Positions 6,907 through 22,629 of a stretch of DNA of 40,409 nucleotides are shown one piece after another (position 1 is the stretch's first letter; each line of letters starts with the position of its first letter). This DNA comes from Deltaproteobacteria bacterium (lineage in GTDB: Bacteria; Desulfobacterota; Desulfobacteria; Desulfobacterales; Desulfobacteraceae), in the NCBI GenBank assembly GCA_027858995.1, contig JAQIBP010000081.1:1-40409 (forward strand), in the 5' to 3' direction. The notes under the pieces were generated by a model. The model saw only the letters and a program-made list of their open reading frames with translations, searched no databases and had not been told where the DNA came from. The translations under genes were made by a program, and so were the position numbers.

Positions 6907-6921
6907 AAACAAGGAGAATTT

Positions 6922-7278
6922 ATGCCACGTCCTAAAAGACCAAGATGTATTTCAGCCCGCCCTGAAACAAAAGGTTTCATACCCCGTGGCACCATAGAAA
7001 CAGGAGAGGTCATACTCTCGCTGGAAGAGTTGGAAGCAGTGAGGCTTATTGATTATGAAGGCTTTGACCAGTCAGGTGCTGCTGCAATTATGAATGTCTC
7101 AAGACAGACATTCGGCAGGATACTGAAACAGGCACGATACAATATTGCCAAAGCGCTTGTTACTGCCAAAAGACTTACTATTCAAGGCGGGTGTTATGAA
7201 ATGCGAAGGTGTGGCAGAGGAAAAGGAAGGATGCGAATAGATGGACAAAGAAAAAGATATGGACAAAATAAAAGATAA
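6922..7278 (+). CDS. DUF134 (UPF0251) family DNA-binding protein
   Basis: The 118-residue protein has the DUF134 pattern: MPRPKRPRCISARPE, then a VILSLEELEAVRLIDYEGFDQ block and a helix-turn-helix of the sigma-region-4 type (GAAAIMNVSRQTFGRILKQA). The tail CYEMRRCGRGKGRMR is basic. DUF134 proteins are small putative transcription factors, often next to glycine-rich DUF5320 proteins and NifX/NifB-like iron-molybdenum cofactor proteins in anaerobes; those last partners are absent here. The gene begins 7 nt after AAGGAG and directly downstream of the double operator, so autoregulation is likely but not shown. The DUF5320-like gene follows at once. Confidence 0.88.
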   Translation: MPRPKRPRCISARPETKGFIPRGTIETGEVILSLEELEAVRLIDYEGFDQSGAAAIMNVSRQTFGRILKQARYNIAKALVTAKRLTIQGGCYEMRRCGRGKGRMRIDGQRKRYGQNKR

Positions 7279-7294
7279 AAAAGGAGGTGATATT

Positions 7295-7582
7295 ATGCCG
7301 GGATTTAATCAAAGAGGACCAGAAAATCAAGGTCCCATGACAGGAAGACGACAGGGAAGATGTGCAGACAATGACAACGCCGGTGATTTTGGTAGACGAT
7401 GCCAGGGTGGCAGATCAAGAAGAGGCAACAGAGGCATGGCTAATGCCCAATGGGACAGGCCTGCCCAACAGACTCCCAATAGCTTTGTTGACAACAAAGA
7501 GGCTCTCAAACAGAGGGCTCAAAATCTTGAGAATGAACTTCAAGCAATCAAACAGGAGCTGAACAACCTGTCTAACTCTTAA
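7295..7582 (+). CDS. DUF5320-like small glycine/arginine-rich protein with C-terminal coiled coil
   Basis: A 95-residue protein starting MPGFNQRGPENQGPMTGRRQ, the usual opening of DUF5320 proteins (MPGxxxxGPxxxGPxTGRxxG). A low-complexity Gly/Arg/Asn/Gln middle follows, then a C-terminal heptad-rich helix (ALKQRAQNLENELQAIKQEL). I start it at the ATG at 7295, which has a near-ideal AAAGGAGGTGAT 6 nt before it; an upstream in-frame ATG lies inside the DUF134 gene. Family function is unknown. The Cys/His residues common in other members are almost absent here (one Cys), so metal binding is not obvious. Confidence 0.8.
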   Translation: MPGFNQRGPENQGPMTGRRQGRCADNDNAGDFGRRCQGGRSRRGNRGMANAQWDRPAQQTPNSFVDNKEALKQRAQNLENELQAIKQELNNLSNS

Positions 7583-7590
7583 TTGTTCAC

Positions 7591-7623
7591 ATGAACAGCC
7601 TGCTTTATCAACAGGCTGTTCAT
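7591..7623 (+). terminator. Hairpin terminator after the DUF134/DUF5320 pair
   Basis: A perfect 12-bp stem, ATGAACAGCCTG pairing with CAGGCTGTTCAT, encloses a 9-nt loop and begins 8 nt after the stop codon. The following T tract is weak, so it may be a leaky terminator or an mRNA-stabilising hairpin. Confidence 0.65.
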
Positions 7624-7749
7624 GCTTCCTATCATTTTATATGGAATTTTCTTATCATTTAATGTATGTAACAACCTGTCGATACAGGAATTTAATCTGG
7701 TTGTGCGATATATCTATATTGCAGACAAACTTTTTAAAAAGAGGTAATA

Positions 7750-8928
7750 ATGTTTTTTGTAGATAAGCCATATATTTCAGATTTTTTAAAAACTACTCTT
7801 AAAGAGAGCAGCATCCCTGTAGTTGGTACTGACATCGCACAAAAGTTGGATTTATATAAAGGCACAAAAATTATCAGTAAAGATGAAGCTGTGAAAATGG
7901 TTCAAAAGCAAGGAACTTCTATAATTTACACCACATCTGAAAACTCAATAGGATGGATTGCAAAATATTTACAATTCACCGGTCTTCCCAGGAAAATAGA
8001 TTTGTTTAAAAATAAATTAAAATTCCGCCAATTAATAGAGCCAATGTTTCCTGAATTTTATTTCAAGGAAGTTTATGTTAAGGAGTTAAAACAAATTCAA
8101 TTTGACAGCTTACCACTGCCGTTTATCATAAAACCCAGAGTTGGTTTTATGAGTATGGGAGTTTATAAGGTTGCAAATGCTGATGATTGGGCTATTACAA
8201 TAAATTCAATTATTAAAGAGATAGATAAGAATAAGGATCTATATCCTGCCCAGGTTGTGGATACAAGTTCATTTATTATTGAACAATGTATTGAAGGTGA
8301 GGAGTTTGCTGTTGACGTCTATTTTAATTCAGCAGGGGAACCTGTTGTATTAAATATATTGAAACATGTTTTTTCTTCAGATGCTGATGTTAGCGACAGA
8401 GTCTATACTACTTCCAAAAAAATCATTGAAAAAAACCTTGAAGAGTTTACAAAATTTGCAGGAAAAATCGGTAAACTTGCAGGAATAAAAAATTTCCCCA
8501 TGCATATTGAACTTAGAAGGGATGATAATGGGATGATCCTGCCCATTGAAATCAATCCAATGAGATTTGGCGGCTGGTGTACGACTGCTGATATATCGTT
8601 CATGGCTTATGGATTCAACCCTTACTTATATTATTACTCACAACAAAAACCTGACTGGTCAAAAATTCTCAAAGGGAAAGAGGGTAAACTTTTCAGTATT
8701 ATTGTGCTGGATAATTCAACAGGCATAAATATTGATCAAATTACTTCATTTGATTATGACAAACTGCTTTCAAATTTTGAAAAACCCATGGAACTGCGGA
8801 AAATTAATTTTAGAGAATACCCTGTTTTTGGATTTTTGTTCACAGAAACCAGAGAAGAGAATTTTATTGAACTTAAAAATATACTGCATTCAGATCTTAA
8901 TGAATTTATCTCAATCAGGCCTGCGTAA
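7750..8928 (+). CDS. ATP-grasp domain protein
   Basis: The 392-residue protein shows the ATP-grasp layout: an N-terminal domain (VDKPYISDFL) and the first nucleotide-contact strand LPFIIKPRVGFMSMGVYKV. Then come the acidic adenine-side segment SFIIEQCIEGEEFAVDVYF and the metal-binding ILPIEINPMRFGG with the E-x-N pair. Such enzymes activate a carboxylate as an acyl phosphate and ligate it to an amine or thiol; the substrate cannot be read from sequence. The ATG at 7750 follows AGAGGTAAT. Its last 18 nt overlap, tail to tail, with the decarboxylase gene on the other strand. Confidence 0.82.
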   Translation: MFFVDKPYISDFLKTTLKESSIPVVGTDIAQKLDLYKGTKIISKDEAVKMVQKQGTSIIYTTSENSIGWIAKYLQFTGLPRKIDLFKNKLKFRQLIEPMFPEFYFKEVYVKELKQIQFDSLPLPFIIKPRVGFMSMGVYKVANADDWAITINSIIKEIDKNKDLYPAQVVDTSSFIIEQCIEGEEFAVDVYFNSAGEPVVLNILKHVFSSDADVSDRVYTTSKKIIEKNLEEFTKFAGKIGKLAGIKNFPMHIELRRDDNGMILPIEINPMRFGGWCTTADISFMAYGFNPYLYYYSQQKPDWSKILKGKEGKLFSIIVLDNSTGINIDQITSFDYDKLLSNFEKPMELRKINFREYPVFGFLFTETREENFIELKNILHSDLNEFISIRPA

Positions 8929-10338
8929 TCTGGAAAACCAGTTCATAACCCTGGCTCCTGCACGGATGGAAAAAGGTTCTTTTCCTGGTTGATCCATAGG
9001 CATTTCACAATCTGGTCCATACATTTTTTCCATCATTTTCATGACTTGCTTTTTAACCATTCCCCTGAAAGGTATTTTGGCAATCATGCCATACATGGCT
9101 GCATTGCCACGGGCTCCGCTGCCTGGGTCTGCTCTGACCTGTTCCACTGCTTTTTTAAGATCATAAAGATATTGATCTGCCACATTTTCATGGACAGGTG
9201 TGACCATGGCATGAAGACCTTCCGGTCTCTGCAGCCTGTCTATATGCCATCCCTTTGAATCCATGACATCACCGACAGCAAAGATATTGAGTTCTGGATC
9301 TGTGGAGCAATATCCAAACAGACTGGCATGGGGTCTGCCCATAATTGCAAGGCCTTCAATACTATTGATACCTTTTAAAAGTTTTTTTGTTGTTATCATT
9401 GTACGGAGGGTAATATCCTGATAACCCTTTTGACCGAGAGCATTTATGGCAGCCCATGCTGCGGCAATGGGTCCACCCGGCCTGGTGCCGAGAAGGGCAG
9501 GAGAAGCAAATACTCCGCCGGGCCAGTCCTGCTGAATAAAAAACTGATGTTTCAAATACTCCATGTTCCGGTAAATTAAAATAGAAGCTCCCTTTGCTGC
9601 AAATCCATATTTATGGATATCTGCTGACATGGATGTCACCCCCGGCACCCTGAAATCAAACAGAGGCAGTTTATATCCGATCTGCTCTGCAAAAGGAAGA
9701 ATGAATCCACCCACACAGGCATCAACATGAAAGGGAATCTTGTTTGTTTTGGCAATTTCACCGATCTCTTCAATGGGATCAATAATGCCATGGGGATAGG
9801 AAGGTGCAGATGCTACAATCATGATGGTATTTCTATTGATTTTCTGTTTTAAAACCTCCACATCCATTTTAAATTCAGATGTCAAAGGAGTGTTTACCAT
9901 TTTTACACCAAAATATTTGGCTGCTTTGGACCATGCCACATGGATGCTTTGAGGGACAATCATTTCAGGCACTATTTTTTTAAATCTTTTTTTTGACAGA
10001 GCCAGCTCCCTATAGGCCATTACAGGCAGAAGACAGGATTCAGTGCCTCCTGAAGTTAATGTGCCGGCAGCATCTTCTCCTGCATTTAAAAGAGAGCCTG
10101 TCATTTGAACAACTTCATGTTCAAATCTCTTCAGACTTTTAAAAGCCATTGGATTTAATGCATTTTCACTGAAATAAAGGTTGTGAGCCTTTTTTAAAAA
10201 TTCAGTGTGATCTTCATTTAAATGATAAACAAGGGACCATGTCCGCCCATCAATATAATTGGCATCTTCTTTGCGGAATGATTTCATTTCAGATAAAACT
10301 TTTTGAAAGGATTGTCCTTCAGAAGGTATAATTTTCAT
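8911..10338 (-). CDS. PLP-dependent group II decarboxylase / sphingosine-1-phosphate lyase-like enzyme
   Basis: A 475-residue fold-type I PLP enzyme. Visible are the phosphate-binding TSGGTES (95-101), the PLP-stacking His133 in SIHVAWSKAA, the Asp206 that pairs with the pyridine nitrogen in HVDACVGG, and the Schiff-base Lys243 in SADIHKYGFAAKG. The PDxC/DxHKYG arrangement and overall pattern are closest to the sphinganine-1-phosphate aldolase branch of the glutamate/tyrosine/aspartate decarboxylase family, common in archaea and anaerobic bacteria. The substrate (aspartate, glutamate, tyrosine or a phospho-amino alcohol) cannot be chosen from sequence. The C-terminus is a basic, proline-containing tail. 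ATG at 10338 has AGGGGTT before it. Confidence 0.85.
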   Translation of the reverse strand: MKIIPSEGQSFQKVLSEMKSFRKEDANYIDGRTWSLVYHLNEDHTEFLKKAHNLYFSENALNPMAFKSLKRFEHEVVQMTGSLLNAGEDAAGTLTSGGTESCLLPVMAYRELALSKKRFKKIVPEMIVPQSIHVAWSKAAKYFGVKMVNTPLTSEFKMDVEVLKQKINRNTIMIVASAPSYPHGIIDPIEEIGEIAKTNKIPFHVDACVGGFILPFAEQIGYKLPLFDFRVPGVTSMSADIHKYGFAAKGASILIYRNMEYLKHQFFIQQDWPGGVFASPALLGTRPGGPIAAAWAAINALGQKGYQDITLRTMITTKKLLKGINSIEGLAIMGRPHASLFGYCSTDPELNIFAVGDVMDSKGWHIDRLQRPEGLHAMVTPVHENVADQYLYDLKKAVEQVRADPGSGARGNAAMYGMIAKIPFRGMVKKQVMKMMEKMYGPDCEMPMDQPGKEPFSIRAGARVMNWFSRLRRPD

Positions 10339-10449
10339 AATAACCCCTGATTTTTGATTTCATATCTTTTCCGCATCTGTAAACAATACAGTGTGTTAAT
10401 ATATTGTTTTGAATCATTTTTTACCCCATGAGAGATTTAAATCCAATAT

Positions 10450-11595
10450 TTAAAACCAATATCTAAAAATATAAGCAAAACTGATACCAAGATAATTACC
10501 CACAGCATACCCGATAATACCTGTTGTCAGGCCTGAAAGAATGATCTGCTTATTGTTCAGGGCACTTGCCACCATTGGCACAAATGGCGGAGAACAGATA
10601 GCAGCCATGGATGTGACAATAAAGGTATCCGTATCAATTTTCATGATACGGCAAAAGAGAGCATGGAGAATAAATGTCCCAAAAATACAGAAAGATATAT
10701 AAAACAGTAAAACCCAGTTGATGTGAACCAGATCCTGAATGCGTGCCATTGACCCCACCACAAGGCAGAAAATCAAAACAATATACATACCCAGCTGAAA
10801 TGTTTTTGTAATTTTTTGAATTTTGGGAATAAAGGATGCTGCAATTCCCAGGGTGGTAATCAGCAGAATGGTAACCACTGTAGAATACTCTTTAGGAAAA
10901 AGCCCTGAAATTCCCAGGGCAGTTCCCAAAATAATCAGGGACAGGAGAAGAGCAATCAACAAACCTTTGATGACCGGCCAGTTCAGCATATTACCATAGG
11001 AGCTGATATTCTCTATCTCTATCTCTGAGCTGTCACAGGAGAGTGCAGATGGTTTGAATTTTAACAAAAATTTATTCATCACTTTCTGGGCAATGGTTAT
11101 ACTGAAGATAATATAAATAAGGCTGATGAGAATGTCATAGGTATGCATAGTGACATAGATCGTAGGATCAACATCTAAAGCGGTTTTAATGGCAGCAAGG
11201 TTTGGAGTTCCTCCTGTATAGACACCAATGGCAAGTCCTGCAAGTTTCCACGAATCTGATACATATTCCCCAATCAAAATACTGCCTGCACCTGCCACTG
11301 CCACTATTATAATGGTGGCTCCCACCATGGACAAAATAGCCTTCCCCGCCATTTTGATCCAGGCCTTTACATTGAGGGAAAACAAAAGCAGGGGCAAGGC
11401 TATGGCAATTGATGCACCACTCAAACTATCCTGAATTGCTGCTGTATTTTCAGGTAGAATCATAAAATTCCCCAAAGCCGCACCCACAATATAGCAGATA
11501 AGCACAGCACCAATCTTGTCCAAAAAAGCAGATTTCATACATAGAAAAATCACGAGAAGCGGAAACAGAACATAAAAACCGATTAATATTGCCAA
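10450..11595 (-). CDS. DUF819 family membrane protein
   Basis: The 381-residue protein has about ten hydrophobic segments and the DUF819 (YjcL-like) signatures LIGEYVSDSWKLAGLAIGVYTGGTPNLAA and a C-terminal CSPPFVPMVASALNNKQIILSGLTTG block. The twin GGTPN and PPFVP loops in opposite halves suggest an inverted-repeat transporter fold. The family is thought to transport small solutes, but no substrate is established. The likely start is TTG at 11595, preceded by AAGGGGTTAAA. The gene lies 23 nt after the threonine aldolase gene, so the two probably share a transcript; amino-acid export or uptake would be a speculative link. Confidence 0.82.
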   Translation of the reverse strand: MAILIGFYVLFPLLVIFLCMKSAFLDKIGAVLICYIVGAALGNFMILPENTAAIQDSLSGASIAIALPLLLFSLNVKAWIKMAGKAILSMVGATIIIVAVAGAGSILIGEYVSDSWKLAGLAIGVYTGGTPNLAAIKTALDVDPTIYVTMHTYDILISLIYIIFSITIAQKVMNKFLLKFKPSALSCDSSEIEIENISSYGNMLNWPVIKGLLIALLLSLIILGTALGISGLFPKEYSTVVTILLITTLGIAASFIPKIQKITKTFQLGMYIVLIFCLVVGSMARIQDLVHINWVLLFYISFCIFGTFILHALFCRIMKIDTDTFIVTSMAAICSPPFVPMVASALNNKQIILSGLTTGIIGYAVGNYLGISFAYIFRYWF

Positions 11596-11618
11596 TTTAA
11601 CCCCTTATTTTCATAAGT

Positions 11619-12650
11619 TTAATCATTGCTGGTAAAAAAGTCTTTAAAAGTCTGGATGGTATAATCAATATCATCCTTTGAAATATCAAGATGGGTTACA
11701 AGCCTTAGATGACTGCTTGTGCCAATAACAACTCCCTTTTGTTTTAAAAAATTACAAAGATTGAACATATCAGCATTGATGTCTGCAAAAACCATATTGG
11801 TCTGCACGATTTTCATATTAATATGGATATCCTTAATTTCAGACAATCCTTTTGCCAAAGCCAGGGCATTTATATGATCCTGTTCCATGCGCTCAATATT
11901 ATTCAAAAGAGCATAAATTCCTGCCCCTGCCAGGAACCCAGCCTGCCTCATGCCTCCGCCAAGAACTTTTCGCCAGCGCCTTGCTTTTTTAATCTGTTTT
12001 TTTGAACCGCAAAGAACAGATCCCACAGGAGCACCCAGACCCTTTGACAGACAGCAGGAAATAGTATCAAAATATTTTGTAATCTCTTTAACATTAACTT
12101 TAAGTTTGACTGCTGCATTAAAAACTCTTGCCCCATCAAGATGAAAACTTAACCTGTTATTATCGGCTAATTTTTTTGCTTTTTCTAAATAGTCCAATGG
12201 CAGGACTTTTCCTGCCTGGGTATTTTCAAGGCATAAAAGTTTTGTGTTTGCAAAATGGATATCATCTGGTTTTATAAATTGTGATACTTTTTCAAGATTC
12301 AGAGTTCCATCCTCTTCAAAATCCAGGGGCTGTGGCTGAATACTTGCCAGTACGGCAGCACCTCCTCCTTCATATTTATAGGTGTGAGCATGCTGTCCCA
12401 CAATATATTCATCTCCCCTTTCACAATGGGTCATCAATGCCAGGAGATTGGTCTGGGTTCCACTGGCACAAAATATTGAATCCTGAGTTCCCAGCATGTT
12501 TGCAGCCAGTGCTTCAAGTTCATTTATGGTGGGATCTTCTCCATAAACATCATCCCCGACTTTGGCTGCCATCATAGCTTTTTTCATGGCAGTTGAAGGT
12601 TTGGTAACAGTATCGCTTCTTAAATCAATTTGTTTTTTCATAATTTTCAC
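11619..12650 (-). CDS. ltaE: Low-specificity L-threonine aldolase
   Basis: A PLP enzyme that cleaves L-threonine/allo-threonine into glycine and acetaldehyde. The sequence starts with the diagnostic IDLRSDTVTKPSTAMKKAM and has FCASGTQTNLLAL, HLDGARVFNAA (Asp172 to the PLP nitrogen) and the Schiff-base Lys203 in SCCLSKGLGAPVGS. 343 residues is typical. The GTG at 12650 has AGGA 7 nt before it, whereas the ATG nine nt later is too far from that site, so I prefer GTG. Its first 26 nt lie inside the end of the HNH nuclease gene of the defence operon, which may couple its translation to that operon. Confidence 0.92.
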   Translation of the reverse strand: MKIMKKQIDLRSDTVTKPSTAMKKAMMAAKVGDDVYGEDPTINELEALAANMLGTQDSIFCASGTQTNLLALMTHCERGDEYIVGQHAHTYKYEGGGAAVLASIQPQPLDFEEDGTLNLEKVSQFIKPDDIHFANTKLLCLENTQAGKVLPLDYLEKAKKLADNNRLSFHLDGARVFNAAVKLKVNVKEITKYFDTISCCLSKGLGAPVGSVLCGSKKQIKKARRWRKVLGGGMRQAGFLAGAGIYALLNNIERMEQDHINALALAKGLSEIKDIHINMKIVQTNMVFADINADMFNLCNFLKQKGVVIGTSSHLRLVTHLDISKDDIDYTIQTFKDFFTSND

Positions 12651-13701
12651 TAAAAAGTCCTAAATTATTGCAAGCGACTAAATATGGCCTGCGTAAAAAG
12701 TTTATTTCATGATAAGGGTTCTTGCCCGCCTCTTTGGTTTTAATGTTATAAAATTCTATTGCCGACTTACCATAATTCTCACATTCTTCTATAATTTGAT
12801 TCAACCAATACCTACCATCACAACCTGCGCATACGGATTTATATCTTTTAGTAATTCCAAACAGATTATCCCATGTTTTTATCTCTTCAGATAATTCAAC
12901 AGGACCAAATACCATTTCAATATTTTCAGATTTCAGATCGGAGATTGTCTGTGTATCGAAAGAAATTTCTATTTCAATATCATCAGAGGATTGGTCATAT
13001 AGATAGAATGCTTTGCGCCTCTCTCTTGATTCATCATGGAGTGGGTCTTTAGCACCTTTGTTAGAACTATTGCATTTGTGACATATTGGAATTAAGTTTT
13101 TAAAATTAATTGAATTAAATGGATATTTGGATTTTGGTAAATAATGATCATAGGCTTCACGAGTATGATTATATTCATTATCAAGAGGATATAAACCGCA
13201 AACAGGGCATTGGCCAATATTGTTTATTTTTACAAAATCTTTGTAATGTTCATCAATTGTTCCAATACGATTTTGTATTAATTTTAGATTAATAACACTG
13301 TCAAAAAGGCTTTTAAAGAAATTTTCAAACACTGATTTTAGTTCAGGGTGTAATAAATCAAGCTCACTGTATAAAAAAGGCGTGCAGTCTAATACACCCT
13401 TACACAAATTTTTAATTTCATTATTATCTTTATAATGTTTAATCAGGTCATCTTTTTCCGATTGATCAAAAGATTGAAAAATTTCATATACTTGTTGAAT
13501 AGGACCATAGAAGTAATCTTGAGTTATACGGTCGTTATAATGAATCTCAAGAGTGATTTCTTTTATCTCGTCAGGCAGTAGCTCCACACTATATTCAACA
13601 GCAGGATCTGCCTTGCACCAGACGTTATAAAAGAGCTGGTCAATCCAGTCCTGAAGTTTATAAATGCTATGCTCAGGCAATAATACATAAGGGAACAGCA
13701 T
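12625..13701 (-). CDS. HNH nuclease, last gene of the type I RM-associated defence operon (PtuB-like)
   Basis: A 358-residue protein with a helical N-terminal half and a central HNH nuclease core. Cys165-x2-Cys168 (QCPVCG) and Cys207-x2-Cys210 (ICHKCNSSNKG) form a zinc frame around Asp185-His186 in AYDHYLPKSKYPF and Asn202 in FKNLIPIC. The x-DHYLPKSxYPxxxxxxxNLIPxCxxCNxxK pattern is that of Septu PtuB and related abortive-defence HNH nucleases. The start ATG abuts the ATPase stop with no gap (13702/13701), so the two must be coupled. The ATPase+HNH pairing is what defines Septu-like modules. The C-terminal end overlaps ltaE by 26 nt. No catalytic residue appears to be missing. Confidence 0.85.
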   Translation of the reverse strand: MLFPYVLLPEHSIYKLQDWIDQLFYNVWCKADPAVEYSVELLPDEIKEITLEIHYNDRITQDYFYGPIQQVYEIFQSFDQSEKDDLIKHYKDNNEIKNLCKGVLDCTPFLYSELDLLHPELKSVFENFFKSLFDSVINLKLIQNRIGTIDEHYKDFVKINNIGQCPVCGLYPLDNEYNHTREAYDHYLPKSKYPFNSINFKNLIPICHKCNSSNKGAKDPLHDESRERRKAFYLYDQSSDDIEIEISFDTQTISDLKSENIEMVFGPVELSEEIKTWDNLFGITKRYKSVCAGCDGRYWLNQIIEECENYGKSAIEFYNIKTKEAGKNPYHEINFLRRPYLVACNNLGLFSENYEKTN

Positions 13702-15396
13702 TTATTTTTTCTCCATACTGTTCAAGATTCTTTTAATAAAAAGTATTTTCTCTACAGAATCACCAAGCAGGGCATTGACCTCATCAAGTAATGCCTGTTT
13801 TGACTCCCCTGCTTCAAATCGTTTTTTAATATCGTCTAACAGTGTTTCTGCATAGCCTCCAATGGTTTCCAGTTTTCCAAACGCTTTCATGGTTATTTTA
13901 TTAATGGATGCACCAAGAGTATTAAAATCAGGGTTTGTAACTTTTATGTTATTAGTTGTAAAAGACTTATCACAAAGCAGGACATGTTCAGGTCTGCTGT
14001 CAGAAATCATATAAGGCGTATGCGTAGTAATCAGCATCTCTCTCATTGTTGTAGATGCATGCCCTGTTTTAAAACAATCTCTTAGAGTGGAAATGAATTT
14101 TGCCCGCCAGTCAGGATTAAAATGTGTTTCCGGTTCATCAAGAAGGATCAGAGCATTCTCTTCTCTGAAAAGCAGACTCAGACCAATTGCATGTAAAAAT
14201 TGATGTTCACCGTCTGATAATGATTTATTATAAACAGTGCCAGATATACCCTTTTTCTTTAATACAAAATCTTTAAATCTGAAAATGCGTTCATCTGAAG
14301 GAAGCACCGGCACGGTTTCATTAACGTATAAACTTGATGACTCATATAACTCTTTTTTTAAATTTTCACTCACAGAAAATAAGTTTAAGGTAAGAAGTAT
14401 TTGAAAAGTTTTAAAAAGATCAATTGGATTGCCAAAATGAAGATTAAATGCCTCTTTGGTTGCTGCATTCACCTTATAATCCAGATATAACATCTCTGAG
14501 GAGTATTCATAATACTGACATGTTGAGCATTTTTTCAATTTATCAATTGCAGTTTGTAATTGCTGAGTGATTTTTAGTGTCTTGTATGTTTCTCCAAACT
14601 CATCTTCATTCTCTTCTAAAAGAGTTTTCGGGAAATCTTCATCAAATGATTTTATATGTGTACGAATTATTATACGAAAAGTCTTTATATCTTCAATGCC
14701 CAACTCTTGGTCAAAAGGTTTTAATATTTCCTTATCCTGTAATAATAAGTTGCTCAGAAGTACAGCCTGGCTGAAATCATTATCAAGGAAAACAAGCCTT
14801 CCTTCGGGTTGTGTCCTATAACCGGTTTGATTTTTGATGCTGTCTTTATATTCATCATAATGAATAAACCTCATTTTAAAAAATGGCAGGCTGAGAATCT
14901 CATTTTGCCCGGAAGAATAGCCGATGATATATGATGGTAAAAATTTTTTTATTTCTATACTTGAAAGCTTTGTTTCTTTTTTATCCTCAAAATCTCCCCG
15001 ATTTATCCAATGTACTTCCGGCTCTTTTTGACTCTCTTTTTTTATCAGGATACGAGCATTTGAAGTTTGTCTGTCCCATGAAAAAGGAAAGAAATATTCT
15101 ATTACAAAGGCATCCGGTGCTGCAAGTTCTGCTCTGAAACCATTTGGATTTGTCTCTTCATCATACTCAAAATTATCAGGTCTATAATTTAAATGACAGC
15201 ACTCAATATGATAAAATATTGATGCCAGCACTTCTAAAATATTAGATTTACCACTGCCATTGCGACCTGCAATTACATATGGATTAAATTCATCAATTTT
15301 ATCAAAATTTAATTCTTTTAAAAATCGGATTTCAAAGCCCGGTTGAAAGCTTCTAAAACCTTTTGGATCATCAATTTTCAATCGAATCAGTTTCAA
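13702..15396 (-). CDS. Restriction system-associated AAA/SMC-like ATPase (PtuA-like)
   Basis: A 564-residue ATPase of the OLD/RecF/SMC-like branch. Walker A GRNGSGKS is at residues 44-51 in the context FNPYVIAGRNGSGKSNILEV. A long insertion (about 90-380) follows. The ABC-type signature is SLSDGEHQFLHAIGLSLLF, and Walker B LILLDEPETHFNPDW comes directly after it, with the switch histidine in LITTHTPYMISDSRPEHVLL. There is no Toprim domain, so the nuclease function would come from the HNH partner. Proteins of this type are known as restriction-system-associated AAA ATPases because they sit beside type I hsd genes; PtuA of Septu is the functional analogue. It abuts hsdS (15397/15396) and the HNH gene without spacing. 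Confidence 0.85.
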   Translation of the reverse strand: MKLIRLKIDDPKGFRSFQPGFEIRFLKELNFDKIDEFNPYVIAGRNGSGKSNILEVLASIFYHIECCHLNYRPDNFEYDEETNPNGFRAELAAPDAFVIEYFFPFSWDRQTSNARILIKKESQKEPEVHWINRGDFEDKKETKLSSIEIKKFLPSYIIGYSSGQNEILSLPFFKMRFIHYDEYKDSIKNQTGYRTQPEGRLVFLDNDFSQAVLLSNLLLQDKEILKPFDQELGIEDIKTFRIIIRTHIKSFDEDFPKTLLEENEDEFGETYKTLKITQQLQTAIDKLKKCSTCQYYEYSSEMLYLDYKVNAATKEAFNLHFGNPIDLFKTFQILLTLNLFSVSENLKKELYESSSLYVNETVPVLPSDERIFRFKDFVLKKKGISGTVYNKSLSDGEHQFLHAIGLSLLFREENALILLDEPETHFNPDWRAKFISTLRDCFKTGHASTTMREMLITTHTPYMISDSRPEHVLLCDKSFTTNNIKVTNPDFNTLGASINKITMKAFGKLETIGGYAETLLDDIKKRFEAGESKQALLDEVNALLGDSVEKILFIKRILNSMEKK

Positions 15397-16851
15397 TTAT
15401 ATTCCCTTTAAAACAATCTCTTTTCTATCTTCATCAAAGGATTGTGACAGTACCGGCTCTTTATTTTCCAGCATCATAAAAATCATCTCTTTAATCTCAT
15501 CATATGTTGGCATTTTAATAAAATCAGCTTTTTCCAAATCATCCCAAAGTTCATCAAAATTAAAAGGATTTCCATTCCTGCTTTTAATAATGTTTAATAG
15601 TTCTTGCTTTGAAAATGGTTTTTGAACTTTCAATTGCGCTTTTACTGATGTGGCGACCCTAACAGGCTCAGGCTTTATTTCAATATCTTTTTTTATAGGG
15701 ATTTTACTCAAATCCAGCTCTCCTTTAAAAGCACGCTGGCTTAATGCACCATAAAGGTTTTCAAGTTCTGTAAGGCTTTGTTTGTATTTTGATTTTATGG
15801 ATGTTATTTTTTCTACTATTTGAGCAAACTTGTTTTGGAGGAGAAGAGGAGGTGTAATAAAATTAATTTTTTTCATGACTGACATTGGTGGGATGTTAGG
15901 TATGCCAGCACCTCTGTTTGGAGTTATATATTTTGTTCTGAATGATGGGTGGCTAAAAACATAAATAAAAAATATTTGGAGCATTTCTTCTGTGTTTAGT
16001 GTAATTTTTAACAATGCCTGATTAATTATACCTGGCAAAGCATCTTGTGGTACAATTGATAATTTACCCAAGTAAACACCAGAACAACTAATTAAAATAT
16101 CACCACCTTTTACCTCGAAGTCTTCCAGTTTTTCAAAATCACTCTGATTAATATAGTATCGTTTGAAAGAATAATCATTATTCAGTGCATGATATTGTTC
16201 ATAAACAAGATAACCCTTATCAACAAATATTTCTTTTTTTAAAGAGCCACCGAAGGGTCCTCTTTTTAGCGAATTCTTTTTTTTTGAAACTAAGTCTGGT
16301 AATTTTTTCAAATCCCAGTTTTTTTCATTATTTATTGGATTCCCAAACATCTCCCAAAATGCACTTTTCAGCAATTCATCAAAAAGCTCAATGCTCTCTT
16401 TACGTTTAGCAATTAAGTTTTCTGCGCTGGAAAGAATTGTGGTTATACGGATTTGGTCATCGTAGCTTTTTGGAATTGGAATTGGAATTTTGCTTATATA
16501 CTTTTTTGAAATATGTTTTAAGCCAGCACCTTTAAATCCTTTTTCCAAGACACGAATATTATTTAATAAGTACAAATAAGCATAAAAAGTATGAATGTCG
16601 ACCTCTGGCTTGGCTTGCGCAATAAGACAGTCATTAGTAGTAGAAAATTTGTTTTGTTGATAATGAATACTTGCATTACCGCCAGTTCCAAAAATTAACG
16701 ATTGCCCTATATAATCAAAATCATTAATATATTTGGATAACATACTACTTGAAGTATAAAACGGATATTCTCCAGTTTTTGCCCCGTCCTTTGCTTTTTT
16801 TCCAGATTTTGGTAAGAACTCAAAGAGTTCATTAAACGTTTTCATTCTCAT
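15397..16851 (-). CDS. hsdS: Type I restriction enzyme specificity subunit HsdS with C-terminal extension
   Basis: HsdS sets the DNA target of the type I complex. The protein has two target-recognition domains: TRD1 about residues 1-140 and TRD2 about 185-345. Each is followed by a coiled-coil spacer: residues ~140-180 with IRITTILSSAENLIAKRKES, and ~345-385 with NKFAQIVEKITSIKSKYKQS then LSQRAFKGELDL. After that point typical HsdS proteins end, but this one continues for about 100 residues. The tail has a Lys/Pro/Val linker and a compact helical part (KPFSKQELLNIIKSRNG, then NFDELWDDLEKADF). The tail may dock the AAA/HNH pair. The start shares one base with the hsdM stop (TAATG); an ATG two codons later is an alternative start. 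Confidence 0.93.
   Translation of the reverse strand: MRMKTFNELFEFLPKSGKKAKDGAKTGEYPFYTSSSMLSKYINDFDYIGQSLIFGTGGNASIHYQQNKFSTTNDCLIAQAKPEVDIHTFYAYLYLLNNIRVLEKGFKGAGLKHISKKYISKIPIPIPKSYDDQIRITTILSSAENLIAKRKESIELFDELLKSAFWEMFGNPINNEKNWDLKKLPDLVSKKKNSLKRGPFGGSLKKEIFVDKGYLVYEQYHALNNDYSFKRYYINQSDFEKLEDFEVKGGDILISCSGVYLGKLSIVPQDALPGIINQALLKITLNTEEMLQIFFIYVFSHPSFRTKYITPNRGAGIPNIPPMSVMKKINFITPPLLLQNKFAQIVEKITSIKSKYKQSLTELENLYGALSQRAFKGELDLSKIPIKKDIEIKPEPVRVATSVKAQLKVQKPFSKQELLNIIKSRNGNPFNFDELWDDLEKADFIKMPTYDEIKEMIFMMLENKEPVLSQSFDEDRKEIVLKGI
15400..15699 (-). other. Extra ~100-residue C-terminal domain of HsdS
   Basis: These codons encode the part of HsdS beyond the second conserved spacer. The first 25 or so residues are a Lys/Val/Pro-rich linker. 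The remainder is a mixed helical segment with an acidic patch (FDELWDDLEKADF) and a closing ILENK/SFDEDRKEIVLKGI-like strand. I know of no assigned function. Its position next to the ATPase gene suggests a protein-interaction role, which is inference. Confidence 0.5.
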
Positions 16852-18413
16852 TACAACAAACCTTTAACTATTTTTAGCTCAACTATTATCTGCTTTTCAA
16901 TTTCTTCCAGTTTTTTCATAATTTCTTCCGGTTTTTTATACTCTATCTCTTCAAACACATCATCTTTATAAAGACTCAAACTCAAATCATATTTTTCATC
17001 AACGACCTCTTGCTTTGGTACAAAGAAATATTTTTTCTTCCTGTCAGTGTCTTTTTTTTGGTCACGCTTTTTAAATTTTTCAACAATATCCTGTAAATCC
17101 CCATACCCTTTTAGTTTTGTGCGTTTATCATCAAGGCTGTACCCGTCACTCTGCATATCATAAAACCATATATTTTCGGTTTCTCCGGCTTTGGTAAAAA
17201 TAAGGATTGCCGTACTGACTCCGGCATAGGGTTTAAAAACACCGCTCGGCATGGTAATAACAGCTTTGAGTTCTGATTTTTCAATAAGCAGTTTTCGTGC
17301 GTTTACAAAAGCTTTTCCTGCTCCAAAGAGTACACCCTGGGGAACAATCATGGCTGCTGTTCCACCAATTCTGAGCATGTTGAAAATACGTTCTACAAAC
17401 AAAAGCTCTGTTTTTGTGGTGTTCAGCTTAAAACTTTCATTTATATCGCCTTTATCAATACTGCCTTTAAAGGGTGGATTTGCCATTACAATATCAAACT
17501 GGTTTTCTTCATTATAGGCTTTGCTTAAAGTATCTTTATAATCAATTTCCGGATCGTCAATACCATGCATCATCAGGTTCATTAAACCAAGGCGAACCAT
17601 GGTTACATCAAAATCATAGCCAAAAAAACTTTTGGTGAGAACTAATTTTCTTTTTTCGTTAAGTGATGCGCTTATTGAATTTCTTATAAAACCATCTTCA
17701 TCGGGTTTGTGTTTGGTTTTTTTCTTATCAAATTGAGTAACAATATATTGGTATGCTCCAAGTAAAAAGCCTGCGGTACCGCATGCAGGGTCTGCAATCT
17801 TGTGACCGTATTTTGGTTCCACAAGTTCTGCCATCAGTTTTATTATATGGCGGGGTGTCCTGAATTGACCGTTTTTCCCGGCACTGGCAATTTCTGAAAG
17901 AAGCATTTCATAAACATCACCCTGAATATCCTGAAAAGTCTGCCCACCCTCTTGCGTATCTTTTTCTATCTCTTCAAAAATCTCTTCAATGGTTTTGATT
18001 GCTTCAACAAGCAGTGTCGGCTTCGGAATTATAAAAACAGCATTTTTTATATGTTTTGTAAAAGGTGAAGACCCTCCGTTTAATTCTTTTAAAAATGGGA
18101 AGACTTTTGTTTGAACATGCACCAGCATTTCGTCTGCCTGCATATGTTTAAAATAGCTCCAGCGAAGTTCTTCTTTTTTAATTTCTTCTTTGGAGCCTGG
18201 AAGAGTAAATGTTCCTTCAAATTTTGAAGTATATGACTCTCCTGTAAACTCAGCATCTGCTTTTCTCTTTAAATCTAGATCATCAAGACGTTTCATGAAA
18301 AGCAGATAGGTAATCTGCTCAATAGCGGTTAATGGATTGGCTATCCCACCGCTCCAGAATTTATCCCAAAGCTGGTTTATCTTATTTTTCAATGTCGGGT
18401 TGTTTTGTAACAT
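16851..18413 (-). CDS. hsdM: Type I restriction-modification DNA methyltransferase subunit HsdM
   Basis: An N6-adenine methyltransferase subunit that, with HsdS, modifies the host's own sites. The helical HsdM N-terminal domain (ITYLLFMKRLDDLD) occupies about residues 10-150. QFRTPRHI is at 183-190, motif I ADPACGTAGF at 207-216 (AdoMet binding), the catalytic motif IV NPPF at 312-315, and a C-terminal coiled coil (EEIMKKLEEIEKQI). All key residues are present, so modification activity is expected. 520 residues is normal. The gap to the preceding AlbA_2 gene is 3 nt, and the stop overlaps the hsdS start by one base. Confidence 0.95.
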   Translation of the reverse strand: MLQNNPTLKNKINQLWDKFWSGGIANPLTAIEQITYLLFMKRLDDLDLKRKADAEFTGESYTSKFEGTFTLPGSKEEIKKEELRWSYFKHMQADEMLVHVQTKVFPFLKELNGGSSPFTKHIKNAVFIIPKPTLLVEAIKTIEEIFEEIEKDTQEGGQTFQDIQGDVYEMLLSEIASAGKNGQFRTPRHIIKLMAELVEPKYGHKIADPACGTAGFLLGAYQYIVTQFDKKKTKHKPDEDGFIRNSISASLNEKRKLVLTKSFFGYDFDVTMVRLGLMNLMMHGIDDPEIDYKDTLSKAYNEENQFDIVMANPPFKGSIDKGDINESFKLNTTKTELLFVERIFNMLRIGGTAAMIVPQGVLFGAGKAFVNARKLLIEKSELKAVITMPSGVFKPYAGVSTAILIFTKAGETENIWFYDMQSDGYSLDDKRTKLKGYGDLQDIVEKFKKRDQKKDTDRKKKYFFVPKQEVVDEKYDLSLSLYKDDVFEEIEYKKPEEIMKKLEEIEKQIIVELKIVKGLL

Positions 18414-18416
18414 TTT

Positions 18417-19781
18417 TTATTTATCCTTTAAAAAATATCCACCGGTTTTTCTGCTGCCCCGGCGCTCTATAAGTTCTTTTTTTATCAATGTTCTAATCTG
18501 TTTATGAATTGTATCAACAGGGCGTTTCAGGTTGCTTGCTATATCATTTGCCTGTGTCCCCGGGTGTTTCGCTATATATTCTAACAATAAAAGTAATTCA
18601 GGATTTAACTTGCCATTTAACTTGCCATTTAACTTGCCACTGTCCGGCACATTATTTTTCACAGGGTTACGTTCAAAAATAACTGTAACAAAATTGTCAA
18701 ACTCAAACTGAATAGGATTAAGACTTGATTTTTTCATTAACTCCTGCATCCTTATAATACCGGTTCCCATCTTTTCTATATAGCCCATGCGGTGAAAAAG
18801 GCTTGCAATGTTGGCATTACGCAGAATACTTTTCTTTCCAAAGTTCCTTTTATTAATACCTTTTACAAGAGTGCCAGGGCTTGATATCTCCACTCTGTCA
18901 TCAAATATTGCAATCATAACATTTGCCCCTTTTTCAAAATAATCACGGTGGCATACTGCATTGATAACAGCCTCTCGCAATGCCTCAAAAGGGATCTCAG
19001 GAATTTCTATTCTTTTAGGTGACCCGTCAAATTCATATCGAATAGAAATATGTTGTTTTAGAAAAAGCATAGCATTGTCAACGCTTGTTACAATATCTTC
19101 ATTAAAATCTTTTCTATCCAATATATTTACTTTATTGATTCCTTTAAAAAGTGCACAGGTTATAGTGGTATGTCTGTATGTATTTTCAAGATTTTTAGCA
19201 AAAAACAGAATCCCTGTATTGTTGAAAAGTACCTTGCCACCTTGTTTTTCAGCAACTCCAAGGTTTTGAAGAATAGTTGGAACAGGAACAACCAAGGATA
19301 TATTGGATATTTTCAGAAAGTTATTTAATTTTTCCTTATCAAAATCTTTATTATAATTAAAATCAATGTTTGTTAATTCATCATATCTTATTTTACCTTC
19401 AGATTGGAAAAACTCAATTATCTGGTTCCGAGTCATCTTTTGTGCATTGGGTCCGATTCTGGTATAGAATCCTGAAGAACAACAGTATGGTTTATCTGCT
19501 CCGCTTCGGACATGGACAATAAGTATATCCTGTACTTCTTTTAATATTATTTTAATTGCAGGCTCGCAATTGTTGGCAATATCCTGTATTTGAGATTTCA
19601 GTTTATTGGTTATTTTTATTCCCTTTAACTCACCATTATCAGAAATCCCAATAAAAATTCTTCCTCCGGATCCATTGGCAAAGGAGACCATCTCTTTATC
19701 AATATTTCCCATTTTTTTTTTAAATTCAACAAGATACCCTTCACCATCTTCGATTATCTGTTTAAGTTCTTTAGGATTCAT
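18417..19781 (-). CDS. AlbA_2 (Schlafen-type) / RecG-like C-terminal ATP-binding protein with winged helix
   Basis: A 454-residue protein of a family often annotated as transcriptional regulator or RecG-like ATP-binding protein. The N-terminal AlbA_2 (Schlafen core) domain shows YLVEFKKKM, MVSFANGSGGRIFIGISDNG and a DKPYCCSSGFYTRIGPNAQKM block. The middle has the HATPase_c_4-like segment EALREAVINAVCHRDY with DDRVEISSPGTL. The C-terminus is a winged-helix domain (LEYIAKHPGTQANDIASNLK). Between ATPase-like and winged-helix parts is a KLNG linker repeated three times. It lies between hsdR and hsdM, overlapping hsdR by one base, so it is a structural part of the operon. It may regulate the operon or act as an RNA/DNA effector. 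Confidence 0.85.
   Translation of the reverse strand: MNPKELKQIIEDGEGYLVEFKKKMGNIDKEMVSFANGSGGRIFIGISDNGELKGIKITNKLKSQIQDIANNCEPAIKIILKEVQDILIVHVRSGADKPYCCSSGFYTRIGPNAQKMTRNQIIEFFQSEGKIRYDELTNIDFNYNKDFDKEKLNNFLKISNISLVVPVPTILQNLGVAEKQGGKVLFNNTGILFFAKNLENTYRHTTITCALFKGINKVNILDRKDFNEDIVTSVDNAMLFLKQHISIRYEFDGSPKRIEIPEIPFEALREAVINAVCHRDYFEKGANVMIAIFDDRVEISSPGTLVKGINKRNFGKKSILRNANIASLFHRMGYIEKMGTGIIRMQELMKKSSLNPIQFEFDNFVTVIFERNPVKNNVPDSGKLNGKLNGKLNPELLLLLEYIAKHPGTQANDIASNLKRPVDTIHKQIRTLIKKELIERRGSRKTGGYFLKDK
18603..18638 (-). repeat. Three perfect tandem copies of a 12-bp unit inside the AlbA_2 gene
   Basis: The plus-strand unit ATTTAACTTGCC occurs three times head to tail with no mismatch. On the coding (minus) strand it reads in frame as a GKLN repeat in the linker before the winged helix. 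Because 12 is a multiple of three, slippage would change linker length without a frameshift. Confidence 0.85.
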
Positions 19782-22600
19782 CAGGCTGCCAGCTCTTTGG
19801 TTAATATTAAAATTTCATCTATTTCAGGTGGAGTAAAAATACCACGAATTCCTTTCGGGTGTATAATGGTAAATGGCGATTCTATTAAGTCTCTCTTATT
19901 TATTGACTCGCGTTCAATCATTACCTCTTTTAAAAGGTTTAAAAATTCCATCTGCCTTGAATTTAAGTTTGAATGCTTTTTAATGAATTGATCAAATGCT
20001 TTAGTGACGGTATTTGAAAAAGTTTCTAAAATTTCAATACCTAAAATATGACGGATAAACTGAATAAATTTTGCCTTGGGATTATCATAGGTCTTTCTTA
20101 AAAGGTCTATGGTTATGTGAGGGTGCTCATTGTTCAGAGTGTCAGCAAGTTGGTTAATTTGTGATTCACTTATTGCTTTTCCCTGTTTGATTTTTTGCAG
20201 GATTGGATTGTTCAAAGTCAGTTCAAGGATCATCTTTTCAACCATTTCACGATATTTTGAAATGCTTACGGATTCATGCTCAGGACCAAACTCTACCATC
20301 TCTTTTAAGAAAACACTGTCTTTGAAATCAAATACTACAGGTCCTGTTTCAGATCCAACAATATTTCTATATTTTGCCAATGGTGCAAGCTTCAAGGCAA
20401 GTTCATTAAAAGTATCATCAATGGCCTTAGCCCAGTAATGATTTGTTTGAGCTTTATTAATCAATGTTTCTTCTTTAGCCACAATATTGACAGAAAGAGG
20501 GAGTTCACTTATCTGTTCCATAAGATTGTCTTTTAATGTTGAGTACTTATCTTTTTCTTCAGATAAAGCAGCTAAAGATATTTCAAGAACATCTTTTTGA
20601 AACCGCATGGCTTTAAAATCAGTTTGAGAAATTGTTCTAAACAAAGGTTTTATATTATTACGCAAAAATTCAATTTTTTCATGGGACATCTTTTTCCAGA
20701 ATTCATCACTCTCTATTGTGTTTAAATCTTCTGCAGCATCTTTGATTACAACAGAATCTTTGGGAAGTTCTTTGATCTGCTCTCGTAAATAGAGTATCTC
20801 TTTTTCAGCAATTTCATTTCTGCCTGTATCAATAGCTTTTTCAATCTTGTCTATTCTGACACCAACAAATTTTACAGGCAGAGGTATTTGCTGCTTGGTT
20901 TCTTTGCCTTTAGGATTAAGCTTAAAATATTCAAAATTATCCCAGCAATCGATAATAAGGAACATATCTTTCTCAGGGCACCATGGCTTTATTTTGTTCT
21001 CTTCTAAAAGCCTTGTTCCCCGCCCGATCATCTGCCAGAATTTTGTATAGGAGTAGACAGGTTTGGCAAAAACAAGATTTACTATTTCTCTTATATCTAT
21101 GCCTGTATCCAGCATATCTACGCTGATAACAATGCGGGGCATATTATTATTGGTGAACTGGTCTAAAAGCCCTCCTTTACCATATACACGAGAATCATCT
21201 GAAACCAGTACTTTTGCAAGTTCTCCGCAGTATTCCGGATATAGAGAATCAAAAATTTTTTGCATTCTTCTGGCATGAGACATGGATGAGCAAAAGAAAA
21301 TTGTTTTACCCGGCAATACACCATCAGGGTCTTTTACACACTCTTCCATAAACTCTTTTACAATTAAAGCATTGGTGCCTTTATTGATTATGGTTTTCTC
21401 AAGTTGAGTGCCTTCAAAATTGATCTCTTCAACTTCTTTACCCTCTAATATCAACTTCTTCTGATCTTCAAGGCAGATCGTTCTTTTGCTGATTCCCTTG
21501 TCTTGAAATTTTGTATGAATTTTCATTACCTGAAAGTTGCAGAGAAATGGTGGAATATGATTTATAGCTTCTTCGTAAGAGAAAGCAAAAGAGGGAATAC
21601 CATCTTCACATTTAAACAGCTTAAAAGTATTGTGGTCAATTATATCTGTCGGAGTTGCAGTTAAACCAAGGCTGATTGTATTAAAATAATTAAGAATTTC
21701 ACCATAGGTATTGTAAATAGAACGGTGACTTTCATCAATAATAATCAAGTCAAAAAAATGGGGCGATAAGGAATTTTTCTCATCACGTATAATATTCAGC
21801 ATGGAAGGGTAAGTTGATATATAAATCCTTCGGTCTTTTGTAATTTGCTTTTCCCCTGGTTTAGGCCATCTTGGTTCATTGGGAAGATACTCTTTAAATG
21901 CAGCAAGCCCCTGTTCTCTGAGAGCAATCCGGTCAACCAGGAAAAGAACTCTTTCAGCCCATCCTGCCCGCATTAAAGCATCAACAATGGCAATGCACAC
22001 TCTTGTTTTTCCAGTACCGGTTGCCATTACTAATAAAAAATTGCGTTGTCTGCTCTCTATCTCTTCCATTACTGCCCGGATAGCCCGGATCTGGTAATCA
22101 CGCCCGGCAATATCGGTATTTATCAGTTCCTCTGACAATAATTTCTTATTATTTTTTATGTAATGGTAGCGTTCAAGGTCATCACGAGTTGGATATCCAA
22201 TTGTTTTTCTTGGAGGATAGTTTTCCAAATCCCAGAAAAATATTTCAAGTCCATTTGTATAAAAACAGAATGGAAGTGTGCAATCGTATTGTTTATGGAT
22301 ATTATAGCAGTATTGTTTAGCCTGCTCGCGACCAGCTTCAGCATCTTTGGATGTTTTTTTAGCTTCAATTACAGCAAGTGGTTTACCATCTTTGCCCAAA
22401 AGCACATAGTCGCTGAATTGATGAGTGTTATATTCAGTTATATCCTCTGCAACGTTGCCAGGCATTGCAACTTTTATATCAAATTCTTCAATTACTTGTG
22501 TACGGTCAGTGATATCCCAACCTGCAACCAATAATTGCTTATCTATTATTATTTTTCTTGTTTGATTTTCCGTGTTTGTCATTATATGTTTTTTATCCAT
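19781..22600 (-). CDS. hsdR: Type I restriction enzyme endonuclease/translocase subunit HsdR
   Basis: The motor and nuclease of the type I enzyme. The N-terminal nuclease domain (PD-(D/E)xK) is visible as SDYVLLGKDGKPLAVIEAKK, with the QAKQYC helix after it. The SF2 translocase follows: the TGTGKTR Walker A loop, IIIDESHRS (DExH), LGLTATP, and in the second RecA lobe SVDMLDTGIDI and the arginine-finger motif WQMIGRGTRL. The C-terminus is the helical HsdM-contact region. At about 939 residues it is complete. I use the ATG at 22600; a TTG six codons earlier (22618) and an ATG six codons later (22582) are alternatives, and none has a clear Shine-Dalgarno. First gene of the six-gene defence operon. 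Confidence 0.94.
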   Translation of the reverse strand: MDKKHIMTNTENQTRKIIIDKQLLVAGWDITDRTQVIEEFDIKVAMPGNVAEDITEYNTHQFSDYVLLGKDGKPLAVIEAKKTSKDAEAGREQAKQYCYNIHKQYDCTLPFCFYTNGLEIFFWDLENYPPRKTIGYPTRDDLERYHYIKNNKKLLSEELINTDIAGRDYQIRAIRAVMEEIESRQRNFLLVMATGTGKTRVCIAIVDALMRAGWAERVLFLVDRIALREQGLAAFKEYLPNEPRWPKPGEKQITKDRRIYISTYPSMLNIIRDEKNSLSPHFFDLIIIDESHRSIYNTYGEILNYFNTISLGLTATPTDIIDHNTFKLFKCEDGIPSFAFSYEEAINHIPPFLCNFQVMKIHTKFQDKGISKRTICLEDQKKLILEGKEVEEINFEGTQLEKTIINKGTNALIVKEFMEECVKDPDGVLPGKTIFFCSSMSHARRMQKIFDSLYPEYCGELAKVLVSDDSRVYGKGGLLDQFTNNNMPRIVISVDMLDTGIDIREIVNLVFAKPVYSYTKFWQMIGRGTRLLEENKIKPWCPEKDMFLIIDCWDNFEYFKLNPKGKETKQQIPLPVKFVGVRIDKIEKAIDTGRNEIAEKEILYLREQIKELPKDSVVIKDAAEDLNTIESDEFWKKMSHEKIEFLRNNIKPLFRTISQTDFKAMRFQKDVLEISLAALSEEKDKYSTLKDNLMEQISELPLSVNIVAKEETLINKAQTNHYWAKAIDDTFNELALKLAPLAKYRNIVGSETGPVVFDFKDSVFLKEMVEFGPEHESVSISKYREMVEKMILELTLNNPILQKIKQGKAISESQINQLADTLNNEHPHITIDLLRKTYDNPKAKFIQFIRHILGIEILETFSNTVTKAFDQFIKKHSNLNSRQMEFLNLLKEVMIERESINKRDLIESPFTIIHPKGIRGIFTPPEIDEILILTKELAA

Positions 22601-22629
22601 GGGATAGAAAAATGTCAAGAAAGAAGCGT

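Follow-up and report, generated by a model that had tools for sequence, protein, structure and literature searches.

The window analysed here is a stretch of 40,409 nucleotides (nt) from a bacterium of the Desulfobacteraceae (contig JAQIBP010000081.1 of assembly GCA_027858995.1, which comprises 4.0 Mb in 172 contigs), and it carries a type I restriction-modification system whose genes adjoin those of an ATPase and an HNH nuclease. Six open reading frames (ORFs) on the minus strand, from position 22618 to position 12625, encode HsdR, an AlbA_2 protein, HsdM, HsdS, the ATPase and the HNH protein in this order (Table 1). The original prediction, made from the sequence alone, had placed these genes on one strand with junctions of -1, +3, -1, 0 and 0 nt, and the ORF listing confirms it. 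From this layout, it appears likely that the six genes share one transcript; a promoter scan returned 56 promoter-like matches where 43.9 +/- 6.9 were expected, not clearly more than chance. The hsdR frame opens with a TTG at 22618, and the in-frame ATG at 22600 is its likely start; the ATPase gene begins with a TTG immediately 3' of the hsdS stop codon. In the following, we focus on the ATPase/HNH pair and on a C-terminal domain of HsdS, here termed EXT, which is gained and lost together with this pair in the window's HsdM family.

Table 1. Genes of the six-gene operon and the HsdS tail domain in the window
Feature	Position	Strand	Description
hsdR	19781..22618	-	EcoAI/EcoEI-like type I restriction subunit; Pfam HSDR_N, ResIII, EcoEI_R_C
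AlbA_2 gene	18417..19781	-	AlbA_2/HATPase_c_4/winged-helix protein (Pfam); accessory cargo in the hsdR-hsdM slot, non-core
hsdM	16851..18413	-	N6-adenine methyltransferase subunit; HsdM_N and N6_Mtase
hsdS	15397..16851	-	Specificity subunit with C-terminal extension; Methylase_S; 484 amino acids (aa)
EXT	15400..15660	-	HsdS residues 398-484; C-terminal winged-helix domain; proposed docking domain
ATPase	13702..15396	-	TIGR04435, PtuA-like, ABC-type; 741 bits (cut-off 300)
HNH nuclease	12625..13701	-	PtuB-like fold; 358 aa

The identities of all gene products but the HNH protein are backed by Pfam, NCBIfam and PADLOC. By its motifs and domains, the restriction system is of the EcoAI/EcoEI-like type I kind: the HsdR translation contains a D...EAK nuclease motif, the helicase motifs ATGTGKT and DESH and an EcoEI_R_C domain, that of HsdM the N6-methylase motifs DPACGTAGF and NPPF, and that of HsdS two Methylase_S stretches, corresponding to two recognition domains. 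With the NCBIfam model restrict_EcoAI, HsdR scores 275 bits, under the cut-off of 550. With the HsdM proteins of ATPase-linked loci, which come from several phyla, the window's HsdM mostly shares 66-77% identity. The value for genome G472 is 59%, and in G454 and G463 HsdM is broken or in pieces.

The ATPase belongs to TIGR04435, which it matches over residues 1-561 of 564. This family's name, 'restriction system-associated AAA family ATPase', already contains the association with restriction; it covers only the ATPase and does not extend to an HNH partner, an HsdS tail or loci that lack hsdR. While its Pfam label is 'AAA', the protein has the ABC-type signature LSDGEHQ, as do RecF, SMC and PtuA, and its Walker A, ABC signature, Walker B and H-loop motifs are almost invariant across 78 sequences. 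It is matched over its full length by PADLOC PtuA1 (172.9 bits), and its profile finds the solved PtuA of retron Ec78 (E=1.7e-12), the solved PtuA of Septu (8ee4, E=1.3e-7), i.e. the ATPase type that characterizes Septu, and AriA of PARIS (E=5e-6); the NCBIfam PtuA model, a retron Ec78 equivalog, gives 44.8 bits, short of its cut-off of 500. The HNH protein falls under every Pfam and NCBIfam cut-off, reaches only 31 bits with PADLOC PtuB, and yielded nothing in a sequence search of the PDB or in a Foldseek search with its model alone. Its HNH/zinc-type motif (C165, C168, D185, H186, N199, N202, C207, C210, N211 and K215) is invariant in 60 aligned sequences. The best solved relatives of both proteins come from type I-A retrons (Ec78, Ec83), and the likeness to Septu that had been proposed for the pair holds at the level of remote homology and fold, with the ATPase as a remote relative of PtuA, and the HNH protein as a probable remote relative of PtuB, of Septu and type I-A retrons.

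We collected the best 80 of 114 ATPase relatives found in a scan of genome contigs, plus locus L103, and called their neighbours with home-made profiles for the six genes (L and G numbers denote loci and genomes). In these ATPase-chosen loci, the HNH gene follows the ATPase gene within 100 nt in 79 of the 80 cases with room for it, the exception being L010 with its split ATPase frame. Likewise, hsdS lies at most 100 nt upstream of the ATPase gene in 77/78 loci (all but L076), hsdR is found upstream in 63/65 (all but L041 and L074), and the complete order hsdR-hsdM-hsdS-ATPase-HNH, allowing for inserts, is present in 62 of the 64 loci with room. According to their record titles, they stem from Desulfobacterota, Bacteroidota/Chlorobi, Gamma- and Betaproteobacteria, Cyanobacteria, Firmicutes, Planctomycetes, Verrucomicrobia and others. 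Three surveys were less bound to the ATPase scan. Among 38 genomes (the window's own and relatives), six have TIGR04435 over its cut-off, all six with hsdS and HNH neighbours (one of these loci was read via its twin L011); among 395 genomes of the phylum, there are two, the window's own and G220; and among 398 Pseudomonadota genomes, there are again two, both adjoining hsdM by their coordinates, while weaker ATPases of this last set (G524, G673) also lie in type I loci. None of these surveys found an over-cut-off TIGR04435 protein away from hsd genes. The hsdS-ATPase-HNH unit is also kept in three plasmid copies and in 2/7 IMG/VR matches (L306, L307); a search of a phage collection gave no match at E<=1e-8. 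In view of the conserved order and the Pseudomonadota survey, we reject the idea that the pair and the hsd genes are chance neighbours. The outcome that would have refuted the original prediction, a pair mostly remote from hsd genes and in no fixed order, did not arise.

The pair might nevertheless be an autonomous Septu-like system that is parked in a type I locus and merely shares a promoter with the hsd genes, much as TgvAB, a GmrSD-like system, is reported to sit within a type I locus (PMC12409362), and as a PtuA-like ATPase and an HNH gene lie inside the type I locus L221, where HsdS has no EXT. We consider this improbable, given the absence of over-cut-off TIGR04435 proteins away from hsd in the surveys, the presence of hsdS within 100 nt in 77/78 loci with room and the fact that HsdS itself varies in step with the pair.

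This variation concerns EXT. The window's HsdS is 484 aa long, whereas the median length is 390 aa among the 39 loci of the count below that lack the ATPase. An AlphaFold model of EXT has the order H-H-H-beta-beta, with a mean predicted local distance difference test (pLDDT) score of 87.7, and of 91-96 from residue 21 onwards, and the domain is thus confidently predicted to be a winged helix. Despite a median identity of only 27%, it retains a conserved sequence pattern, and the ratio of nonsynonymous to synonymous substitution rates (dN/dS) is 0.08-0.59 in 22 of 25 listed pairs, i.e. those for which it was computable. In Pfam, EXT matches only HARE-HTH (E=0.18), a PDB sequence search returned nothing credible and Foldseek gave no useful match at E<=0.001. 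The presence of this extra domain on the HsdS of ATPase-linked loci is new here, and the winged-helix tail accompanying the pair had no place in the original prediction. In the accessible part of the literature, mostly open-access papers, we found no description of an HsdS tail that goes with an ATPase/HNH pair. These loci may be described in earlier work, in which we include Krishnan et al. 2020.

A second set of loci was chosen by HsdM. It consists of 82 loci, namely 21/22, 20/31 and 40/49 of the match rows of HsdM searches, and L105. The 22nd row of the first search is the window itself; the other rows left out are lower-scoring matches, further fragments of a gene already represented, and four genomes that underlie ATPase-chosen loci (G464, G443, G438 and G447). 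We dropped 33 of the 82, where hsdM was absent, weak or short, hsdS was absent or cut, or less than 1500 nt remained downstream. Of the 81 ATPase-chosen loci, 20 likewise stay outside the count: five by name, i.e. the duplicates L006, L010, L011 and L025 (twins of loci with G handles) and L103, which is counted in the HsdM set, and the rest owing to an hsdM, hsdS or HNH gene that is missing or cut.

Over all 111 loci counted, EXT and the ATPase agree without exception: both are present in 72 and both absent in 39. The 49 loci from the HsdM searches contribute 10 with both and 39 with neither. Some of the HsdM-set loci (L102, L103, L104, L106) had first been fetched for their ATPase and are HsdM matches as well, and the EXT model was built in part from them or their twins; six of the ten ATPase-bearing loci of this set (L211, L273, L278, L281, L283, L286) are independent of its construction. 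Moreover, an EXT model built from half of the loci matches 37/37 held-out ATPase loci and, within the HsdM set, ATPase loci only. Mapped onto the HsdM tree, the ATPase is gained or lost about 10 times, and in 8/8 independent pairs EXT changes with it; this tree covers 38 of the 61 ATPase-chosen loci counted, was made by a quick method and carries a long-branch warning for L065, L074, L275, L281 and others. Finally, EXT distance tracks ATPase distance beyond what HsdM distance accounts for (partial rho 0.39, 68 loci, 0/300 permutations).

On these grounds, we find it reasonably probable that a PtuAB-type effector is docked on a type I methyltransferase via the EXT domain of HsdS, as a guard or as a second effector. 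In other words, a type I system would here have incorporated a PtuAB-type pair, with HsdS contributing a candidate adaptor domain. The correlation behind this reading is strong and repeated, and adjacency is its main caution.

Several points weigh against it. Since EXT and the ATPase gene are adjacent, they can travel as one piece of DNA whether their products touch or not, so that their correlation may reflect block transfer; the partial correlation shares this weakness. A winged helix could also bind DNA instead of the ATPase. In addition, some loci do not conform. L305 has a more distant ATPase (154 bits with our own profile and 173 bits with TIGR04435, below the cut-off) and an HsdS without an EXT match, weakly similar ATPase genes adjoin an HsdS without EXT in L221 and L275, and EXT is recognized only by eye, below the model threshold, in L130 and only at E=0.03 in L131. 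The ATPase in L147, the locus of G220, exceeds the TIGR04435 cut-off beside broken hsd genes and without an HNH match, and L041 has hsdS, the ATPase and HNH but, as far as the sequence was read, neither hsdM nor hsdR. In L041, an hsdS-like ORF (8523-10004) follows a 390-aa ORF that, by eye, may encode an integrase, and the locus could represent either an hsdS arrangement that inverts or a break in the assembly.

Taken to its conclusion, the adjacency argument says that the 3' end of hsdS, the ATPase gene and the HNH gene are exchanged as a single segment by recombination in the HsdS repeat without any contact between the products, and that EXT has a role of its own, for instance in DNA binding. 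Locus L210 (G503) illustrates how this could look: it has hsdR and hsdM of the same family (HsdM 70% identical to that of the window), and its HsdS ends right after the conserved repeat, without EXT. Furthermore, HNH genes and first recognition domains diverge strongly between otherwise close loci, and exchange within the locus is therefore common, while the EXT fold type is common among DNA-binding proteins. Two observations sit less well with such transfer and are suggestive, not decisive: EXT keeps its conserved pattern at a median identity of 27% and is absent whenever the pair is absent, and it accompanies the pair in further families of type I systems as well. Examples are L304, where the ATPase frame is split and the EXT model matches HsdS at E=6e-7, and L130 on a Sphingobium plasmid, with an HsdR of 1120 aa, an HsdM of only 159 bits, an ATPase scoring 403 bits with TIGR04435 and an HsdS end that is EXT-like by eye. 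Overall, we regard block transfer without contact as unlikely, if by no means far-fetched.

In L210, the place of the ATPase/HNH pair (positions 9678-13677) is taken by a 309-aa gene and a gene for a 1012-aa protein with a reverse transcriptase (RT) domain, which we take to be likely of the DRT kind. A similar alternation is seen in the clade that includes the Chlorobiaceae record L027, in which closely related loci differ in this respect, L273 having the pair and L259, L265 and L266 lacking it. In L261 and L264, a 114-aa HNH piece (63 bits), perhaps the remnant of a lost pair, adjoins hsdM in the absence of ATPase and hsdS; as hsdS is missing, both are outside the co-occurrence count. A further ATPase-less HsdS, of 596 aa (L279, positions 6183-7973), has a long tail unlike EXT.

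The reverse situation, hsdM-hsdS(EXT)-ATPase-HNH with no hsdR in the stretch read, occurs in L283 (G1062), L286 (G1034), L074 (G472) and L131 (a Priestia plasmid). With the window's HsdR as the query, no match at E<=1e-10 was found in G1062, G472 or the Priestia plasmid record, and in G1034 there is one 42-bit match about 145 kb from the locus. In L131, an annotated 'restriction endonuclease' is encoded about 8 kb from the ATPase gene on the opposite strand. This endonuclease, an HsdR of another kind or a partner on the Priestia chromosome may serve these loci. As the pair persists in loci without a neighbouring hsdR, a neighbouring HsdR of the window's family is not needed.

The slot between hsdR and hsdM is variable, too. 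In 20 of the 64 ATPase-chosen loci with both genes, the gap exceeds 200 nt, and AlbA_2 forms the largest insert cluster, with five of these 20; other inserts belong to Bro-N, KilA-N, PDDEXK_3 and RhuM-Fic (e.g. L051, L020, L103 and L047), one is a piece of hsdM and some have no assigned family. AlbA_2 genes also lie upstream of hsdM at a contig edge (L002, L025) and elsewhere near the locus (L004, L027, L044, L058). Within the HsdM set, 25 loci of the window's family are countable; AlbA_2 is present in 4/10 of those with the ATPase and in 5/15 of those without it. AlbA_2 is thus interchangeable cargo, separate from the core unit, and we reject it as a core part: its slot holds unrelated genes, and its presence is independent of the ATPase.

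This bears on the original prediction, which saw in AlbA_2, the type I enzyme and the ATPase/HNH pair one three-layered machine, whose pair might be licensed by the type I complex, for example after HsdR-stalled DNA or when a phage blocks restriction. Its appeal lies in the six co-oriented genes with junctions of -1 to +3 nt. The AlbA_2 layer does not survive the comparison above, and licensing by HsdR-stalled DNA is weakened by the four loci that keep the pair without an adjacent hsdR, so that we deem this machine very improbable; activation upon a phage block of restriction may still apply.

Returning to a pair docked through EXT, we infer the docking, the trigger and the nuclease target, and picture the system as follows. 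EXT would dock the ATPase onto the HsdM2-HsdS complex, and this complex would hold the HNH nuclease silent or position it. Disturbance of the complex by an anti-restriction protein of a phage, or its encounter with target DNA that is unmodified, would cause the ATPase to free the nuclease, which would cut nucleic acid and block the infection. HsdR would carry out ordinary restriction in parallel and be dispensable for the pair. In a guard version, HsdM-HsdS would keep PtuAB silent and anti-restriction would release it; in a guided-effector version, HsdM-HsdS would place PtuAB at unmodified sites. The retention of hsdM and hsdS and the dispensability of hsdR fit both versions alike.

There are reported parallels for such control. 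PrrC is physically bound and silenced by the linked type I enzyme EcoprrI and is switched on when T4 Stp neutralizes EcoprrI (PMC2610378). PtuAB of retron-Eco7 causes growth arrest unless RT and msr-msd are both present, and tRNA-Tyr is depleted, whereas PtuAB of retron-Eco4 is toxic without tRNA loss (PMC11555353); likewise, a Septu system is described as cleaving tRNA-Tyr, with both the ATPase and the HNH motifs required (PMC13096335). With even the two retron PtuABs differing, any nuclease target assigned to the window's pair would be tentative, a further caution towards our reading.

A more specific idea, to which we would give somewhat less than even weight, is that HsdS acts as a plug-in adaptor: via EXT, the methyltransferase would take over PtuAB as the retron RT with its RNA/DNA does, and in the hsdR-less loci the pair would be the sole effector. 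If true, this would be a third mode of control for PtuAB. If other PtuA-like clades are likewise paired with HsdS tails of another kind, the solution would have arisen repeatedly.

The related systems differ from the one described here as follows. The window pair shares its ATPase/HNH composition with Septu, but it is not a free two-gene system, given its nearly constant hsdS neighbour, and its HNH protein stays below curated cut-offs. PARIS (AriAB) has a related ATPase, AriA, but its AriB is a TOPRIM nuclease, while the partner in the window is an HNH protein without a TOPRIM match in Pfam; PARIS is not known to need a type I enzyme. Type I-A retrons (Ec78, Ec83) provide the closest solved proteins, but none of the six window proteins has an RT domain in Pfam (the msr-msd RNA was not searched for), and the partner here would be HsdM-HsdS. 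Their PtuAB is reported to be neutralized by RT and msr-msd (PMC11555353), and the 2021 PADLOC paper treats the retron form as Septu type II (PMC8565338). PARIS is described as a guard against anti-restriction proteins (PMC12707154, PMC12839542). PrrC resembles the window ATPase in being an ABC-type ATPase that is encoded in a type I system and held by its enzyme, EcoprrI (PMC2610378, PMC12707154), but it carries an anticodon nuclease in the same protein, whereas the window's nuclease is a separate HNH protein and its ATPase has ATPase-type Pfam matches only, without the fused anticodon nuclease of PrrC and RloC.

The HsdS tail offers a concrete candidate connector between two defence systems that are usually treated apart, and nature provides close pairs of loci with and without it. 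Should it indeed dock the ATPase, nucleases of the PtuAB type would come to be viewed as effectors of general use, able to work with various sensors (free, retron or restriction methyltransferase), and software for finding defence systems that scores Septu and type I systems as separate entities would have to be revised.

Other HsdS proteins with C-terminal tails (530-644 aa; L144, L309 and L313-L316, the latter being four of five plasmid matches) lie beside a different PtuA-like ATPase. Their tails are alike in L144 and L309 and only loosely alignable in L313-L316. A third, HNH-like gene is present in four of the six, as judged by weak TIGR02646/PtuB scores (L144) or DHF/DHY motifs (L313, L314, L316), and was not identified in L309 and L315. 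We take these tails beside another PtuA-like clade as a lead only.

Within the pair, the HNH protein can vary much more than the ATPase. In L017/L018, L060/L078 and L016/L032, the ATPases are about 87-90% identical and the HNH proteins only 39-44%, although their first ~40 residues (50-78%) and the HNH core are better conserved. The HNH gene seems to be exchanged between alleles. ATPase residues ~80-160 are hypervariable between otherwise similar proteins (L021/L032, L053/L058, L078/L211) and possibly form a sensor surface. For lack of evidence, we reject this hypervariable stretch as a partner of EXT: after allowing for the remaining ATPase sequence, its divergence does not track that of EXT (partial rho 0.01). 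The divergence of the HNH body does not follow it either (partial rho -0.11).

The G+C content of the operon (12625-22618) is 33.9%, as compared with 39.1% in the remainder of the window, in line with acquisition. The next gene, which the original prediction does not mention, encodes a threonine aldolase, whose ATG at 12641 lies inside the last HNH codons (12625-12641), resulting in a 17-nt overlap; among the ORFs of the loci compared, this aldolase is present in the window's own copy only.

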